The position numbers and the translations under genes are program-made. The notes beneath the pieces were generated by a model. The model did not search any database and was not told the origin of the DNA. It saw only the letters and a program-made list of their open reading frames with translations. A stretch of 64,000 nt of DNA from contig NZ_CP045491.1 in NCBI RefSeq assembly GCF_009392895.1, positions 62,001-126,000 of the forward strand, in the 5' to 3' direction. This DNA is from Natronorubrum aibiense (lineage in GTDB: Archaea > Halobacteriota > Halobacteria > Halobacteriales > Natrialbaceae). The stretch's first letter is position 1. Each line of letters opens with the position of its first letter. Positions 10,460 through 62,677 of the stretch are shown piece after piece.

Positions 10460-11833
10460 ATGAGTGTCGACCTCGTCGTACGCAACTGCACCGTCGTCAC
10501 CCCCGCCGGGCGAACGCCCGATGCGGGCGTCGCCGTCGAGGACGGAACCATCGTCGCCGTCGGGAAAAGCGATCGGCTGCCCGACGCGGATCGCGTCCTC
10601 GACGGCGAGGGGAAAGTCCTGGTCCCTGGCATCGTCGACGGCCACATCCACAACCGCGAACCGGGACTCGAGTACAAAGAGGACTGGGAGTCGGCCACGC
10701 GCGCAGCAGCCGCCGGCGGCGTGACGACTGTCGTCGGGATGCCCAACACCGATCCGGTGATCGATCGGCCGGAACACCTCGAATTGAAGTTCGACCGCGG
10801 GGAGGCGTCGGCCCACGTCGACTTCCAGAGCTACGTCGTCGTTACGTCCGAAAACATAGCGCTGATTCCGGAGTTAGACGAGGCTGGTGCGATCGGCTAC
10901 AAGATCTTTCTTGGCTCGACAGTCGGGGACGTCCCGCCGCCGAACGACGGCGAGATCCTCGAGGCGATGGAAAAAATCCGAAAGACGGGCAAACGCCTCG
11001 GCTTCCACGAAGAAAATGGCGAGATCATCGACCACTACACCGAACAGTTCAAAGCGGCCGGGAAGAACGACCCAATCGATCACTCCCACTCGCGACCCGT
11101 CATCGCCGAGCAAGAAGCCGTCGAGCGGATGCTCACCTTCGCCGAGGAAACCGGTGCCAAGATCCACATGTTCCACGTCTCCTCGGGCTCGGCTGCCGAA
11201 GCCGTCGCTCGCGGGAAGGACCGCGGTATCGACGTCACCGCCGAAACTTGCCCCCACTATCTGTGGTTTACCGAGGACGTCATGCGCGAAAAAGGGAATC
11301 CAGCGCGGATCCAGCCCCCGATCCGAGACGCTGAAGAGCAGGCAACACTCTGGGAAGTCGGCATCGACGAGGGCGCGATCGACAGCATCGCGACCGACCA
11401 CGCACCCCACACCCCCGAGGAAAAGAAAGTCGACGACCCCTTCGGCAACACCTGGGACGCGATCTCGGGCTTCGTCGGCCTCGAGACCGAAGTGCCGGCG
11501 CTGCTCACCTTCGTCAATGAGGGCCGACTCACCCTCGAGGAGTGGGTCCGTCGCCACTCGACCCGTCCCGCCCAGATCTGGGGGCTGTACCCCAAGAAGG
11601 GCTCGCTGCAGGTCGGCACCGACGCCGACTTCACGATCGTCGATCCCGACCTCGAGTGGACGCTCGAGGACAGCGACGACCTCCACTCGAAAAACTGCGT
11701 GACGCCGTTCGTCGGCGAATCGTTCACCGGAAAGGCGGTGTCCACCGTCGTCCGTGGCGAGGTAGTGTACGAAGATGGAGACGTGGTCGGCGAGTCGGGA
11801 TACGGGACTCGAGTCGACGTAGACGACGTATAA
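10460..11833 (+). CDS. pyrC: Dihydroorotase
   Basis: The protein has 457 residues from ATG 10460. A TATA-like GGTATTATGC about 30 nt upstream suggests a leaderless transcript. The amidohydrolase metal ligands are all visible: DGHIHNREPG at the first strand, the carboxylated Lys in GYKIFLGST, HEENGEI, KIHMFHVSSG, and the terminal Asp/His in IATDHAPHTPEEK. Dihydroorotase closes N-carbamoyl-aspartate to dihydroorotate in de novo pyrimidine synthesis. The next enzyme, dihydroorotate dehydrogenase, is encoded 5.4 kb away at 17237. The C-terminal SKNCVTPFVGESFTG is the usual end of archaeal PyrC. Confidence 0.95.
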   Translation: MSVDLVVRNCTVVTPAGRTPDAGVAVEDGTIVAVGKSDRLPDADRVLDGEGKVLVPGIVDGHIHNREPGLEYKEDWESATRAAAAGGVTTVVGMPNTDPVIDRPEHLELKFDRGEASAHVDFQSYVVVTSENIALIPELDEAGAIGYKIFLGSTVGDVPPPNDGEILEAMEKIRKTGKRLGFHEENGEIIDHYTEQFKAAGKNDPIDHSHSRPVIAEQEAVERMLTFAEETGAKIHMFHVSSGSAAEAVARGKDRGIDVTAETCPHYLWFTEDVMREKGNPARIQPPIRDAEEQATLWEVGIDEGAIDSIATDHAPHTPEEKKVDDPFGNTWDAISGFVGLETEVPALLTFVNEGRLTLEEWVRRHSTRPAQIWGLYPKKGSLQVGTDADFTIVDPDLEWTLEDSDDLHSKNCVTPFVGESFTGKAVSTVVRGEVVYEDGDVVGESGYGTRVDVDDV

Positions 11834-51358: not shown

Positions 51359-52210
51359 TCACTCGAACGACGAAGTGTCCACCGAACTCAGTTCGGAGGT
51401 GTCGGACTCGAGCAAGTCGACACCGACCGATCCGAGCCAGTCTAACACGGTTGCTACTTCTGTGGGTGACTCGACTCGACAGGAAGCGGCGGACGGTTCG
51501 TCGCCGCCGACCCGGATGCCGATCCCGTCGGGCTCGACGATTCGGAACGCCGATTCGTCGGTGACGTCATCGCCGATGTAGATCGGCACCGTCTCGGACG
51601 GCAGATCAGCCGCGATCAACGCGACCGCGTTCCCCTTACCCCAGGGAATCGACGGTCCGATTTCGAAGATGCGTTTGCCGGTCGAGACTTCGAGGGCGTC
51701 GTTGCCGAATCGGTCGACGACCGCGTGCGTGTGCCGTCGGACGACCGGTCGAAGACGGCGCGGGACGGATCTAACGTGGACCGTCCCCGTCAATCGCTTG
51801 TTCTCGATCCGACAGTTCGGCACCGGCTCGAGAACCGTCTCGAGCGCCGTACACACCGCCTCGAGTCGCGACGTCCGTTTGCGAGCGACCGGGTGGACGG
51901 CAACCAACCCGTGTCGGGACAGTTCGAGGCCGTGGTTGCCGGCGTACGTCTTCGGCCCGTCGATGCGGTCGCGAACGTCGGCCAGCGCGCGGCCGCTGAC
52001 GATCGCCGTCGAGACGGCGGACGCCGACACGAGCGACGCCAGCGCAGCCTCGTTTTCCGGCGTCGGCGACGCCTCGTCCGGTTCCTCGACGATCGGGGCG
52101 AGCGTCCCGTCGAAATCCAGACAGAGCAGGAGCTGTGACGCGTCCGCAAGCGTCGAACGGAATCGGTCCCACTGATCGTCGATCGGGTGGGGTGCAGTCA
52201 TCGACGACAT
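51359..52210 (-). CDS. otsB: Trehalose-6-phosphate phosphatase
   Basis: The protein has 283 residues of the HAD superfamily. LLLCLDFDGTLAPIVEEPDEA carries the nucleophile Asp (DxDGT), IVSGRALADVRDRIDG and NHGLE are the conserved sugar-phosphatase motifs, and GKGNAVALIAADL plus YIGDDVTDESAF complete the metal site. It dephosphorylates trehalose-6-phosphate to trehalose, a compatible solute and stress protectant. The gene follows otsA with a spacing of 3 nt, so the two form an operon. Confidence 0.94.
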   Translation of the reverse strand: MSSMTAPHPIDDQWDRFRSTLADASQLLLCLDFDGTLAPIVEEPDEASPTPENEAALASLVSASAVSTAIVSGRALADVRDRIDGPKTYAGNHGLELSRHGLVAVHPVARKRTSRLEAVCTALETVLEPVPNCRIENKRLTGTVHVRSVPRRLRPVVRRHTHAVVDRFGNDALEVSTGKRIFEIGPSIPWGKGNAVALIAADLPSETVPIYIGDDVTDESAFRIVEPDGIGIRVGGDEPSAASCRVESPTEVATVLDWLGSVGVDLLESDTSELSSVDTSSFE

Positions 52211-52213
52211 TGG

Positions 52214-53992
52214 CTACACTGACGACGGTCGTTCGTACGGATCGAACGTCGAATCCGACCGCGAGTCAGAGTCGGTGGCGTCGCGGCCCGTTTCCTGCTC
52301 GGCGGCGTCCGACTCCCGTTCAGACTCCGACGCTCGAGTCACACCAGTACGACGTCGCTCGGTTCGAACGGAGCGCATCCAGTCGAACTGGGTTTTCATC
52401 CACCACTCGAGGTCGCCGTCGAAGACGCGGGTTCGAAGGGTGTTCATCCGGCGCTTGCGTTCGTGGGGTGGTATCGAGACGGCCCGCTCGAGTTGGCGGG
52501 CGAAGTCGTCGATATCGGTCGGGTCGATCGTCAGCGCGTGGGAACCGAGCGTCTCGTGTGCCCCAGTCTCACGGCTCAACACCAACGAGCCGTCGCCATC
52601 GACGCTCGCTGCAACGTACTCCTGAGCGACCAGATTCATCCCGTCGGTCAGCGGGCTGACGACCATCAGGTCCGCCCGCCGGTACAGCGCACAGAGCTCC
52701 GCTCCCGAGAGGTAGTCTTCGGTGTAGACGATCGGAGACCACGCTCGCGTACCGAATCGCTGATTGATCCGTTTGACTTCGCTTCGAACGAGGTCGCCGT
52801 GTCGTTCGTACGCCCGAATATCGGTTCGGGAAGGCGTAGCCGTCTGGATGAACGTAAACTCGCCGTGCCAGGTCGGGTTTCGCTCGAGAAACCGTTCGAT
52901 CGCAGCCAGCCGTTCGGGAATGCCCTTCGTGTAATCGAGTCGGTCGACGCCGAGCCCAATGACGTTCTCGCGGTCGATATCGTAGCGGTCGAACAGCGAC
53001 GAGAGCTGCGAGGCAGAAATCGACCGCGCATCCCGATCGTACGACTCGGCGTCGACACCCATCGGTGTCGCGACGACGCGGGTCACGTTTCCATCGTAAG
53101 AGACCGTCTGCCGTGTCCAGTCGACGTCGGCAGCGGGGAGAAACCGGTGGACACAGTCGAGAAAGCGCTCGGCGTATCGACTGATGTGAAAGCCGAGCAT
53201 ATCGTTCCCGAGCAGTCCCTTGAGAACGTGTCCGCCGGCAGGGCAGTGTCGAAACGTCGCCGACGTCGGCCACGGGATATGCCAGAACTGGGCGACGGTC
53301 GTCGACGGCGGGACGTCGTCTCGGATCATCTGCGAGGCGAGGGCGAAGTGATAGTCCTGGAGCCAAACGACCGAATCGGCTGTCGCGTGTTCGCGTACTG
53401 CTTCGGCGAAGCGCTCGTTGACCGTTCGGTACCACTCGAAATCGTTCGACTGGTGGTCGACGAGATCCGTGAACCCGTGACACAACGGCCAGAGAACGCG
53501 GTTGCTGAACCCGTAGTAGTAGGAGTCGACGGCCTCGTCGGAGAGATCGATACGCTGGAGCGTATAGGACGGGTCGTCCGGCGGGACGGCTACGCAGTCG
53601 CGCTCGTCGGCGACGTCGAAGTCGGCATCCCCGTCACCCCAGGCGATCCAGGTTCCTGCAGACTGCTGGAGCACTGGATCGAGTCCGGCGGTCAATCCGC
53701 CAGTCGGTTCGTCGACCGTGATCGCACGGTCGTGGGTCGCCTCGGTCGATTCGGAAATCGCCTCGTCGGCTCGCGTCTCGATACCCGAGGGGGCCGTCGA
53801 CGGGTCGTCATCGGCCGACGTCTCGTCGTCGTATTCGTGTCGGTATGGTTGCCGGTTCGAAACGACGATCAGGGAGTTCGGACAGGTCGGACCGTCAGCG
53901 CGTGACTCGGCTGTCTTCCGACCATCGCCATCGGTTCGTACCGGTCGATTGCTCGGAGACGTCAACGACAATCGCTCGTCGGGAATTCGCAT
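52214..53992 (-). CDS. otsA: Trehalose-6-phosphate synthase
   Basis: The protein has 592 residues, longer than bacterial OtsA (about 470) because of an acidic N-terminal stretch (to about residue 110) and a C-terminal low-complexity tail. The GT20 core is clear: SLIVVSNRQPY, GGLTAGLDPVLQQSAGTWIAWG, VWLQDYHFALASQMIR, VVATPMGVDAE, GLGVDRLDYTKGIPERL and PLTDGMNLVAQEYVA. It joins glucose from a nucleotide sugar to glucose-6-phosphate. It is the first gene of the otsA-otsB operon and is divergent from the M24 peptidase gene. Confidence 0.94.
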   Translation of the reverse strand: MRIPDERLSLTSPSNRPVRTDGDGRKTAESRADGPTCPNSLIVVSNRQPYRHEYDDETSADDDPSTAPSGIETRADEAISESTEATHDRAITVDEPTGGLTAGLDPVLQQSAGTWIAWGDGDADFDVADERDCVAVPPDDPSYTLQRIDLSDEAVDSYYYGFSNRVLWPLCHGFTDLVDHQSNDFEWYRTVNERFAEAVREHATADSVVWLQDYHFALASQMIRDDVPPSTTVAQFWHIPWPTSATFRHCPAGGHVLKGLLGNDMLGFHISRYAERFLDCVHRFLPAADVDWTRQTVSYDGNVTRVVATPMGVDAESYDRDARSISASQLSSLFDRYDIDRENVIGLGVDRLDYTKGIPERLAAIERFLERNPTWHGEFTFIQTATPSRTDIRAYERHGDLVRSEVKRINQRFGTRAWSPIVYTEDYLSGAELCALYRRADLMVVSPLTDGMNLVAQEYVAASVDGDGSLVLSRETGAHETLGSHALTIDPTDIDDFARQLERAVSIPPHERKRRMNTLRTRVFDGDLEWWMKTQFDWMRSVRTERRRTGVTRASESERESDAAEQETGRDATDSDSRSDSTFDPYERPSSV

Positions 53993-55381: not shown

Positions 55382-55402
55382 GACACCGAGTTTCCGGTGA
55401 AA
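55382..55402 (-). repeat. ORB-like origin repeat downstream of orc1
   Basis: GACACC, AG-type spacer and TTTCCGGTGAAA: the 21-bp ORB unit in minus orientation, in the 71-bp gap between the M24 peptidase stop and the orc1 stop. It is 1.25 kb from the next unit. Confidence 0.75.
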
Positions 55403-55438
55403 CCTCGAACCAGTTCGCAGCGTGACTTGGAAGCCCCG

Positions 55439-56644
55439 TTACGTCTCGTCCGTCTCGACGAGCACCTTTCGGACGACATCCGGGTCCTCGAGCAACTGGT
55501 GTTCCGTGTAGCTACCCTCCGCGCTTCCGCCGCTCTGGCGGGACTGCTCGATGATATCGAGGAAGGCGTGTTCTTTCAGTAGATCCCGAACGCGGCGCAA
55601 CGAGAGCGTGTCGGAGCCTTCCTGGCGACAGATCTCCTCGTAGACGTCATAAATACGAGTCGTCCGGAACCCGTCTTCGTCCGCGCTGTTGAGTGCGAGC
55701 ACCGCAAGCGCCTGTAAGACGTATCGCGAGTGCGGCGTCGAGCCTCGGATGAGTTCCCGAAACCGATCGGTTTCGGCCCGTTCGCGCGCCTGCACGACGT
55801 ACTCCTCTCGGACGACTTCGTTTCCGGTCGACTGTGCGATTTCGCCTGCGTACCGAAGGATGTCGATCGCCTTCCGAGCGTCGCCGTGTTCTCGAGCGGC
55901 CAGCGCCGCCGCCCGCGGAATCACCGACGAATCGAGGACCCCGTCTTTGAACGCGTCGCTTCGGGCCTGCATGATCTCTCGAAGTTGGTTAGCGTCGTAC
56001 GGCGGGAAGACGAACTCGCGTTCGCAGAGACTGGATTTGACGCGCTCGTCCATCCGATCTTTGTACTTGATCTTGTTGCTGATCCCGATCACACCGATCT
56101 TACACGACTCGAGTTTTCCGGCTTCGCCCGCACGCGACAGTTGCATAAGAATGTCGTCGTCGTCGAGTTTGTCGACTTCGTCCAAAATGATGAGCACGAC
56201 CTCGTACTGGGTATCAAGCACCGTCCAGAGGCGTTTGTAGTACGTCGATGTGCTGAGTCCCTTGTCGGGGATCTTGATATCGGTGACAGCCGAATCGTTC
56301 AACGAATGGGCGATCGTCTGGACGGCTTGCGTCTCCGTGCTGTCCTGAGCACAGTCGACGTACGCGAACTCGGCCGTAACGCCTTCTTCTTTCGCGACAC
56401 GGACGAGCCGTTCGGAGATGTGTTTGGCACAGAGGGATTTTCCAGTGCCGGTTTTCCCATAGATGAGGAGATTGCTCGGGCTCTGCCCGAAGATCGCTGG
56501 ATTAACTGCGTTCGCGAGATCTGCGATCTCGTCGTCTCGACCGACGATTCGACCCTCTTCCGGGAGGTGGTTGATCTCAAGCAGCTCTTTATTCTCGAAG
56601 ATGGGATCATCACGGGTGAAGAGGTCGTCGCCGGAACTCGACAT
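55439..56644 (-). CDS. Orc1/Cdc6 replication initiator
   Basis: The start is ATG 56644 (401 residues); an earlier ATG at 56695 would extend translation through an ORB site and is less likely. The AAA+ domain has Walker A YGKTGTGKSLCAKH, Walker B VLIILDEVDKLDDDD and sensor 1 IGVIGISNKIKY, followed by the sensor 2 Arg in AREHGDARKAID. The C-terminal winged helix begins near residue 310. It binds ORB repeats next to its own gene to start replication. A TATA-like AAAGATATTTC (about 56671-56681) lies 30 nt upstream, with an ORB between it and the start. Confidence 0.95.
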   Translation of the reverse strand: MSSSGDDLFTRDDPIFENKELLEINHLPEEGRIVGRDDEIADLANAVNPAIFGQSPSNLLIYGKTGTGKSLCAKHISERLVRVAKEEGVTAEFAYVDCAQDSTETQAVQTIAHSLNDSAVTDIKIPDKGLSTSTYYKRLWTVLDTQYEVVLIILDEVDKLDDDDILMQLSRAGEAGKLESCKIGVIGISNKIKYKDRMDERVKSSLCEREFVFPPYDANQLREIMQARSDAFKDGVLDSSVIPRAAALAAREHGDARKAIDILRYAGEIAQSTGNEVVREEYVVQARERAETDRFRELIRGSTPHSRYVLQALAVLALNSADEDGFRTTRIYDVYEEICRQEGSDTLSLRRVRDLLKEHAFLDIIEQSRQSGGSAEGSYTEHQLLEDPDVVRKVLVETDET

Positions 56645-56652
56645 AGATGGTA

Positions 56653-56673
56653 GACACCACGTTTCCGGTGAAA
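56653..56673 (-). repeat. ORB repeat between orc1 TATA and start
   Basis: GACACCACGTTTCCGGTGAA plus A, minus orientation, one base short of the full CACACC start. It begins 9 bp upstream of ATG 56644 and touches the TATA-like tract. Confidence 0.88.
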
Positions 56674-56793
56674 TATCTTTACTGTTTGGACTCACAGCCT
56701 GCGAACCGCTGAGAGTGAGTTATTTGCGGGAGAGAGACGCTCTCGAGAGGATGGGTGAGAAAACGATGAACGACGGGATCGATGGAGCACACA

Positions 56794-56814
56794 CACACCA
56801 CGTTTCCGGTGAAA
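56794..56814 (-). repeat. ORB repeat, perfect unit
   Basis: CACACC, AC, GTTTCCGGTGAAA: a full-match unit in minus orientation, followed by a second element with the opposite orientation at 56836 and 56859. Confidence 0.92.
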
Positions 56815-56835
56815 CGGGAAAATGGAGGGAACGGG

Positions 56836-56854
56836 TTCCAGTGGAAACGGGGGT
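56836..56854 (+). repeat. Canonical-type ORB with G-string
   Basis: TTCCAGTGGAAAC followed by GGGGGT matches the general archaeal ORB (dyad plus G-string) better than any other copy in the window. It lies 5 bp before the variant unit at 56859. Confidence 0.75.
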
Positions 56855-56858
56855 TTGT

Positions 56859-56879
56859 GTTCACCGGAAACTCGGTGTG
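56859..56879 (+). repeat. ORB repeat (variant type)
   Basis: GTTCACCGGAAAC, TC, GGTGTG in plus orientation. It is the only plus-oriented variant unit on the orc1 side of the AT-rich tract. Confidence 0.88.
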
Positions 56880-57056
56880 CAGCTCATCACAATTATGGAA
56901 TAACGGAGTAAGAGATGATCTCTTAAGGAAATTCGGTAGTTTCAGTGAAAGAGATGTAGTCGTCCGATCGGTCCGAAACGGACTATTTCACAGGAAGAAA
57001 AAATCAAAAAAGATGCATCGTTTTCTACACCTTGTCGAAAGGGATCTCGAGAGCGA

Positions 57057-57068
57057 TTTCCGGTGAAA
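57057..57068 (-). repeat. ORB core, partial
   Basis: TTTCCGGTGAAA only; the CACACC arm is missing. It borders the AT-rich tract on its left side. Confidence 0.65.
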
Positions 57069-57330
57069 TCTCCGGTATTGACTTACGTCAATATCCTATT
57101 TCTTTTTAGGACTTAATGGACTTTTGATCTTGGAGTGACTTATACATATCTATCTGGTAGCTGTAGATAGTCTTCGCTAGGAGGAATCTGCTGTCAATCG
57201 AAGGCTTATTCACGGAATGGTATTTGAGAAGTTCTGTCCAGTACTTCCGCGAGAGAATGTATTTTATACTAATTTAACCAGTTATTTTGGGTATCCGTAG
57301 GTATTCCTTGACGTTCACTCTTTCTCGTTG
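57069..57330. other. AT-rich tract, candidate duplex unwinding element
   Basis: The most AT-rich stretch of the origin region (for example TATCCTATTTCTTTTTAGG near 57090 and TATTTTATACTAATTTAACC near 57258). It lies between the two opposed ORB groups. Confidence 0.65.
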
Positions 57331-57379
57331 TTCGATTCGTCTTCTTCAAGCGCTGCCCCTCCCTACCCTCCTCGAGGTG

Positions 57380-57400
57380 TTTCACCGGAAACCCGGTGTG
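57380..57400 (+). repeat. ORB repeat, right cluster unit 1
   Basis: TTTCACCGGAAAC, CC, GGTGTG: full match, plus orientation. Confidence 0.92.
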
Positions 57401-57458
57401 TGTGTCTGGCGACTGTACTGACACGTTCCACCAGTCTTCCCCACCCAGTGTTTTCCCG

Positions 57459-57479
57459 TTTCACCGGAAACGTGGTGTG
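57459..57479 (+). repeat. ORB repeat, right cluster unit 2
   Basis: TTTCACCGGAAAC, GT, GGTGTG: full match, plus orientation, 79 bp from unit 1. Confidence 0.92.
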
Positions 57480-57663
57480 CGCGCGCATCCTCGTAACCAC
57501 TGAACGTCACTCCATACTTGATCGCGCGAACCTGATTACGCGATGGCGTTTCGATCTATGTGAATCGGTTCAGTTGTCACTACAATAGCCCCGTGCACCA
57601 GCGACTTCCCGCTCGAGTCCGGTTTCAATTGATTACCCCTTCCCGTTCCGATTGCCCTTTCTT

Positions 57664-57684
57664 GTTCACCGGAAATCTGGTGTG
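57664..57684 (+). repeat. ORB repeat, right cluster unit 3
   Basis: GTTCACCGGAAAT, CT, GGTGTG: two substitutions, plus orientation. Confidence 0.88.
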
Positions 57685-57701
57685 TTCTTCCGGATGATCT
57701 A

Positions 57702-57722
57702 TTCCACCGGAAACCCGGTGTG
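57702..57722 (+). repeat. ORB repeat, right cluster unit 4
   Basis: TTCCACCGGAAAC, CC, GGTGTG: one substitution, plus orientation, 38 bp from unit 3. Confidence 0.88.
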
Positions 57723-57791
57723 CCTGCGAGTAAGCGTTCGACGATGGTTACACTTCAATCGCTGTCGACGATTCCGTTGTCGGCCTGTCAC

Positions 57792-57812
57792 GTTCATCGG
57801 AAACCCGGTGTG
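57792..57812 (+). repeat. ORB repeat, right cluster unit 5
   Basis: GTTCATCGGAAAC, CC, GGTGTG: two substitutions, plus orientation. Confidence 0.86.
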
Positions 57813-57890
57813 TTCCTCGTCGTGCTGGCCGACTTCTTTCGTGTGGCTCGTATGGAACGTGTTTTCCAAAGACAGTCCTCCCGCGATGTA

Positions 57891-57911
57891 TTTCACCGGA
57901 AACGTGGTGTG
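57891..57911 (+). repeat. ORB repeat, right cluster unit 6
   Basis: TTTCACCGGAAAC, GT, GGTGTG: full match, plus orientation; outermost unit. Confidence 0.92.
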
Positions 57912-61735: not shown

Positions 61736-62677
61736 TCAGCTCCGCTGGCGATGGGCACTGACGAGTGCTGCGAGCGCCAGCGCGACGAGCGCAACAGAGA
61801 CGCCGAATCCGGGGAGTTCGTCGCCGGCCCCTTCCTCGTCGTCGGTGTCGTCCGTCTCGTCCGCACTCGAGGTCGATGAGTTATCGTCCTCGTCGGGAAC
61901 TGGTTCACCGTCGGCTCCGGTCACTTCGCTATCGAGTTGGAGGACGGCGGTGACCTGTCCGTGGGAGCCGTCGGGGTAGTAGGTCCAGCTACCGCCGGCC
62001 TCCTCGTATGGTTCGGCGGCCTCGATTGGATCGATGTCGGTATCCCACGTGTCGTGTGCCTGTTGAATGTAGCCGACGGTCTCGATTTTGTCGGCGTGCT
62101 CGCCCTCGATCTGGATTTCGCCGTATTCGACGGTTCCGTCCTCGGGCAGGCCGTGCAGTTCGATGCAGTGGCTGTCCATGTAGCCGTTCCCCTGTGGAAG
62201 GTCGTCGGTCGTTCCGAACTGGTCGGCATCGAGTGGTCGGTCGTAGTTCTCAGTCAGCGGGTAGGTGACGGTCATCGGGTCGGCGTGGCTGTGCCACGAC
62301 GTCGAATCACCAGTTGGGAGCGTCACTGTCGTGTTCGGGACGGTCTCACCGACGATGGGGTCACCCGCCTCGTTGAGGAGTGTGACACAGATCTTCGCGG
62401 ACCCATCACCGAGATACGGCTCTCGGTACTCGTCGCGTGGGTTGACGTAACTGACCCAGTTGCCGTCACTGGCTTCGTAGTATTCGTCGTCCGGACCTGG
62501 CGCTTCTTCGACGTATGCGTCTTCGGAGACGTTCAGTTCGGTATCCGAATCGGGAGGTGTGAGGGCCGGATTCGTCGCCGAATCGGCGCTTGCGCCACCG
62601 ATCGCAACGAACCCGGCGAATGCGATGCAGACCACGGCGAACAGACCGGCCGCGACGACCGTTCGCGATCGAGTCAT
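61736..62677 (-). CDS. PGF-CTERM-anchored surface protein
   Basis: The protein has 313 residues. The N-terminal signal is TVVAAGLFAVVCIAFAGFVAIGGASA. The C-terminus is an acidic Ser/Thr stalk followed by LPGFGVSVALVALALAALVSAHRQR, the PGF-CTERM archaeosortase signal with its basic end. The mature domain (about 70-250) contains DGSAKICVTLLNEAGDPIVGETVPNTTVTLP, SWHSHADPMTV and YMDSHCIELHGLPEDGTVEYGEIQIEGEHADKI, with clustered His suggesting metal binding. Neighbours (P19-like lipoprotein, TlpA, CcdA) hint at a shared role in metal acquisition. The exact function is unknown. Confidence 0.83.
   Translation of the reverse strand: MTRSRTVVAAGLFAVVCIAFAGFVAIGGASADSATNPALTPPDSDTELNVSEDAYVEEAPGPDDEYYEASDGNWVSYVNPRDEYREPYLGDGSAKICVTLLNEAGDPIVGETVPNTTVTLPTGDSTSWHSHADPMTVTYPLTENYDRPLDADQFGTTDDLPQGNGYMDSHCIELHGLPEDGTVEYGEIQIEGEHADKIETVGYIQQAHDTWDTDIDPIEAAEPYEEAGGSWTYYPDGSHGQVTAVLQLDSEVTGADGEPVPDEDDNSSTSSADETDDTDDEEGAGDELPGFGVSVALVALALAALVSAHRQRS

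Follow-up and report, generated by a model that had tools for sequence, protein, structure and literature searches.

In the text of Wu 2012 (PMC3528665), origins of the oriCb family are divided into two types: one is linked to rRNA genes, with that of H. volcanii orc5 among its members, and the other is mostly extrachromosomal, with H. turkmenica, N. magadii, H. xanaduensis, and H. jeotgali as hosts. The initiator of H. volcanii oriC2, an active origin, is Orc5, and H. mediterranei cdc6G, a relative of this Orc5 with more than 90% identity, also serves an active origin. At H. hispanica oriC2, an ORB-rich region downstream of the initiator gene restrains initiation, likely via titration (PMC3936714), and Sulfolobus oriC2 is bound by two initiators, Orc1-1 and Orc1-3 (PMC6742236). 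Such origins bear on how haloarchaea coordinate the several origins and replicons present in each cell.

The origin described here was found in a window of 64,000 bp that comprises positions 62001–126000 of contig C4 (207,310 bp) of Natronorubrum aibiense. It is an origin of an ordinary kind, well formed, and belonging to a family known since 2012, on a replicon that resembles a plasmid; of note are the lack of a G-string in the ORBs of this widespread family and an oriC1-like element present across origins with different initiators. A pattern scan of the window with the 21-bp ORB TTTCACCGGAAACNNGGTGTG located ten copies with two or fewer mismatches at 55382–57911, compared to 0.01 copies expected from shuffles even when three mismatches are allowed, which bears out the earlier note in its count of at least ten copies near an orc1/cdc6 gene. 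An eleventh copy in the window, with three mismatches, is found at 11722 within open reading frames. In the whole genome (4.35 Mb, four contigs), the single copy outside the cluster with two or fewer mismatches is C4:165529, within a 538-aa frame; the same note had expected clustering here only. A reversed-pattern control search of the whole genome gave no matches. The idea that ORB copies elsewhere form a regulon was rejected, since both extra copies that were checked fall in coding frames.

The ten ORBs flank an AT-rich tract. Three of them are on the minus strand, namely the one downstream of orc, between its stop codon and a peptidase gene (55382–55402, one mismatch), the one immediately before the start codon of orc (56653–56673, one mismatch), in a placement conserved in close relatives and in most anchored family loci, and an exact copy at 56794–56814. 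The last of these is the gene-proximal member of a divergent pair, its partner (56859–56879, one mismatch) being on the plus strand though still on the gene side of the tract; both members are supported by the pattern scan and by the alignment of relatives. Six distal ORBs, all on the plus strand, follow on the far side, three of them exact (57380–57400, 57459–57479, and 57891–57911), one with a single mismatch (57702–57722), and two with two mismatches (57664–57684 and 57792–57812). The proposed arrangement of minus copies on the gene side and plus copies on the far side is thus correct for nine ORBs and fails for the copy at 56859.

The tract itself (56880–57379, 58.4% AT) is a candidate unwinding region by its base composition, and the 300-bp stretch with the highest AT content in the window (56995–57294, 62.3% AT compared to 39.3% for the window) is located between the two arrays, in the position proposed before. 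It includes a dyad-only half-ORB, TTTCACCGGAAATC, which has no GGTGTG and is kept in eight of nine aligned loci (57055–57068, minus strand). This is followed by an inverted repeat, ATTGACGTAAGTCAAT (57077–57092), the arms of which covary among close relatives (TTGAC/GTCAA or TCGAC/GTCGA), still pairing while the sequence changes, and by AAAAGTCCATTAAGTCCTAAA (57105–57125, minus strand), conserved in the alignment of relatives. Within the latter segment, inside the AT tract, AAGTCCATTRAGTCC is conserved. The half-ORB, the inverted repeat, and a G-rich element at 56837–56855 are absent from the earlier note. An AT-rich tract between inverted ORBs, a GAAAC core in the ORBs, and an initiator with the Orc1/Cdc6 fold are features in common with oriC1 of haloarchaea and crenarchaea.

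The orc1/cdc6 gene that adjoins the origin (55439–56644, minus strand) encodes an initiator of 401 aa with AAA+ and winged-helix domains (TIGR02928, E 6e-131; Cdc6_lid and Cdc6_C winged helix). Its start is placed at ATG 56644, and its end at 55439. A longer frame of 418 aa, starting with GTG, was rejected, since it would translate the promoter-proximal ORB; the 401-aa start is preferred both because the 418-aa frame crosses this ORB and because several relatives begin later, their Orc proteins aligning only from residue 18 of the 418-aa frame, which corresponds to ATG 56644. Just upstream of the ORB at 56653–56673, the segment CCAAACAGTAAAGATA (56674–56689, minus strand) is conserved in every one, or almost every one, of the nine loci aligned and may represent a basal promoter. 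A scan for sigma-70 promoters was set aside as having no relevance to archaea. Among the family loci with a usable anchor (about 20 had none), most show a nearly constant distance between the ORB immediately upstream of orc and the start codon, and on the basis of this spacing we suggest that the ORB would mediate autoregulation of orc.

ORBs are also found downstream of orc in 61 of 90 family loci, as in N. aibiense, where the downstream copy might titrate the initiator. H. hispanica oriC2, with its oriC2D (PMC3936714), likewise has ORBs to either side of its initiator gene, although the downstream region there is an ORB-rich cluster, whereas a single downstream copy is present here. Beyond this copy, genes for trehalose-6-phosphate synthase and trehalose phosphatase (51359–53992) are located beside the origin and are kept with it on several related plasmids.

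The genome contains 14 strong Orc genes, and the only one on C4 is that adjacent to the origin. The closest named relatives on complete records are carried by plasmids of about 160–240 kb, among them those of N. bangense (214 kb) and N. daqingense (203 kb), as well as H. turkmenica pHTUR04 (172 kb), and in several of these relatives the neighbouring genes for trehalose synthesis and the peptidase are present as well. Natrinema-like genomes encode the same initiator on chromosome-sized contigs. The GC skew of C4 has no clear turning point, and the ends of the contig have no overlap that would indicate circularity. As C4, of 207 kb, has no second strong orc gene and plasmids carry the closest named relatives of this one, the locus is probably the main (primary) origin of a 207-kb plasmid-like replicon; the label "secondary" given to it earlier does not suit the only Orc-linked origin of a contig with such relatives.

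Taken together, the ORB cluster and its restriction to one place in the genome, the AT core, the domains of the initiator, and the activity of related origins make it very likely that the locus is an Orc1/Cdc6-dependent replication origin of a plasmid-like replicon of ~207 kb, belonging to the oriCb family. The 401-aa Orc would bind the ORBs as oriented monomers, with the divergent pair on the gene side, the array on the far side, and the AT tract between them; the tract would unwind, and the helicase would be loaded there. Haloarchaea do have predicted origins that are inactive, as well as an ORB-rich region without origin activity, so that the array could in principle serve to titrate the initiator or have a regulatory role, or be an origin that lies dormant, in a replicon that starts elsewhere. 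The complete origin anatomy, the presence of the only strong orc on C4, and the active relatives make this very improbable.

Membership in the oriCb family was assigned by the initiator and its context only; the ORBs depart from the G-string described by Wu. Of 292 Halobacteria genomes sampled, 144 encode an Orc with at least 72% identity (counted by eye), the next identities being 59% or less. In one genome, a second Orc, 59% identical, is encoded on a 4-Mb contig about 3.5 kb from the oriCb-type Orc. Both oriCb types are represented in the family, the rRNA-linked chromosomal one and the plasmid-borne one: a search for RNA genes in ten Haloferacaceae-like stretches found 16S rRNA, 23S rRNA, and a tRNA within 13 kb of orc in eight. 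The 401-aa Orc is 95% identical to the only family member detected on H. turkmenica pHTUR04 and 81–82% identical to those of the rRNA-linked Haloferacaceae-like loci, proteins that may correspond to, or be relatives of, Htu_5222 and Hvo_orc5 of Wu. Identity of ~80% or more among most members of the initiator family, and ORBs located upstream and at times also downstream of orc, would agree with oriCb as characterized in the text of Wu 2012 (PMC3528665). The same text, with which the comparison was made, gives a G-string for all predicted ORBs, unlike the GGTGTG found here.

The GGTGTG form is a property of the whole family. At all family loci scanned, which came from collections of genomes and plasmids and from 20 additional stretches, ORBs of the same type were present, amounting to 706 copies at 90 deduplicated loci with the consensus TTTCACCGGAAACNNGGTGTG. 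Position 18 is T in 99% of the 706 ORBs, and GGGG is found nearby in only 28 of them; the search pattern for these copies favours the GGTGTG form, and unbiased GAAA-anchored clustering gave the same consensus. In the Haladaptatus/Halorussus branch of the family, the ORB is TTTCACTGG. The view of the earlier note that the initiator probably reads an ORB dialect of its own is supported, as the G-string-less ORB is conserved together with the initiator family, whereas calling the consensus unusual is not, as it is family-wide and the family is the published oriCb by initiator and context. The literature search yielded no paper with the 21-mer ORB, and the G-string-less ORBs of the family were not found described in the searchable literature, which excepts supplementary files and subscription papers. 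The existence of a large origin family with such ORBs is a test of the rule that a G-string is required by the AAA+ domain.

Comparison with other origins of the same genome defines the dialect further. Its oriC1, at C1:1257 kb, has a 573-aa open frame and ORBs of the form TCCANNNGAAACNNNGGGGT; the C4 origin has neither a long Orc1 nor TCCANNNGAAACNNNGGGGT ORBs, and the prediction that it is not of the oriC1 type was therefore accurate. A perfect oriC1-type ORB, TCCATGTGAAACGAAGGGGT, is also present at C1:1074469–1074488, far from oriC1 and with no orc within 1.5 kb. De novo ORBs at other own orc loci are clear at oriC1 and C1:1856 kb and weaker at C3:54 kb and C1:2484 kb, the GAAA-anchored method giving no convincing ORBs at the remaining own orc loci. 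With GAAAC as the alignment register, positions 17–20 read GGGG in oriC1 ORBs (74 ORBs, for which the search pattern required GGGG), the ORB family of C1:1856 kb has GGGGT at positions 16–20, and the oriCb-type family has GGTGT at the same positions. Because GGTGT and GGGGT differ by one base in this register, GGTGT is, on these alignments, better termed an interrupted G-string than an unrelated sequence; the view that GGTGTG replaces the G-string holds in so far as no GGGG run is present and needs amending in this respect. The proposed comparison of Orc winged-helix residues was also informative, as both the wing and the ISM differ from those of oriC1 initiators, which are longer: the wing is SGGSAEGSY here and KGRYGRT or RGRYGKT there, and the ISM is IPDKGLSTSTYY here and VPMTGWP or VPFTGLS there. 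The wing and ISM were assigned in these initiators to residues that we take to be equivalent to those in published structures. As judged from the residues, their distinct character fits a specific pairing of Orc and ORB.

Within the divergent pair, a G-rich element, TCCAGTGGAAACGGGGGTT (56837–56855, plus strand), looks like an oriC1 ORB in which the G-run is compacted, and is a further conserved component of the origin at a fixed spacing. The pattern TCCANNNGAAACNNNGG matches exactly in 30 of 90 family loci and within one mismatch in 53, a few of the matches being misplaced or overlapping an ORB; no exact match was found in 249 control stretches. At the right place, the element is found within one mismatch in 49 of the 90 loci and within three in 72 (the looser matches being weak evidence); the loci are related, so the counts are not independent, and several Halobacteria families are included. 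Its distance to the plus ORB is 38–40 bp in nearly all the better loci, and half or more of the family members have it ~39 bp away from the gene-proximal ORB. The element was not found described at such origins in the searchable literature, again with supplementary files and subscription papers excepted.

It is possible, if rather less than probable, that the cognate Orc itself has in this element an additional site, one that bears a G-string, so that the origin would use a G-string once, in the core. It abuts one cognate ORB, keeps the fixed spacing of 38–40 bp to the other, and has GAAAC in common with the ORBs, although its TCCA half is unlike their TTTCAC, and the same element is present at C3-type origins with a different initiator and different ORBs. 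In the genome of N. aibiense, TNCANNNGAAACRGRGGTT is found exactly at only two places, the C4 origin and the C3 plasmid origin, the initiator and ORBs of which differ from those at C4. At the origin of the plasmid-like contig C3, the same element takes the form TGCAGATGAAACGGGGGTT (C3:56191–56209), beside a different ORB type and an Orc of 53% identity.

The element might instead bind the chromosome-encoded Orc1, acting as a common factor for plasmid and chromosome, so that two initiators would operate at the origin, a reading that we regard as rather unlikely. It matches the oriC1 ORB at the conserved dyad positions and is common to origins that differ in ORBs and initiators, among them one oriC1. 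In H. hispanica, deletion of cdc6A is difficult whereas that of oriC1 is not, and the authors of that work suggest a common-factor role; against this, the origins of that species require cdc6 genes of their own. Sulfolobus oriC2 (PMC6742236) offers a possible parallel and precedent for an oriC1-type site within the origin of another initiator, with the difference that binding of two initiators was shown there and the present case is a resemblance of sequence. The G-run of the element is, however, shorter and 3 bp nearer to the dyad than in oriC1 ORBs, the TCCA half has decayed to TGCA or TGGA in many members while GAAACGGGGGTT is retained, and 18 of 90 loci lack, at the right place, any match with three or fewer mismatches.

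The shared element offers a concrete DNA target for the Orc1/Cdc6A common-factor idea, testable in Haloferax. Haloarchaeal plasmid and secondary origins may even be bipartite, with the cognate initiator on G-string-less ORBs and one conserved oriC1-like element, at its fixed spacing, recruiting the chromosomal Orc1; we consider this doubtful, and if true, it would couple all replicons to one common initiator. With a stricter pattern, ten of 13 exact matches in 79 genomes had an orc gene no more than 1.5 kb away, five of them in the oriCb-type family, four in the C3 family, and one in an oriC1. The three exact matches in other genomes with no orc within that distance may be orc-less sites or may have arisen by chance.
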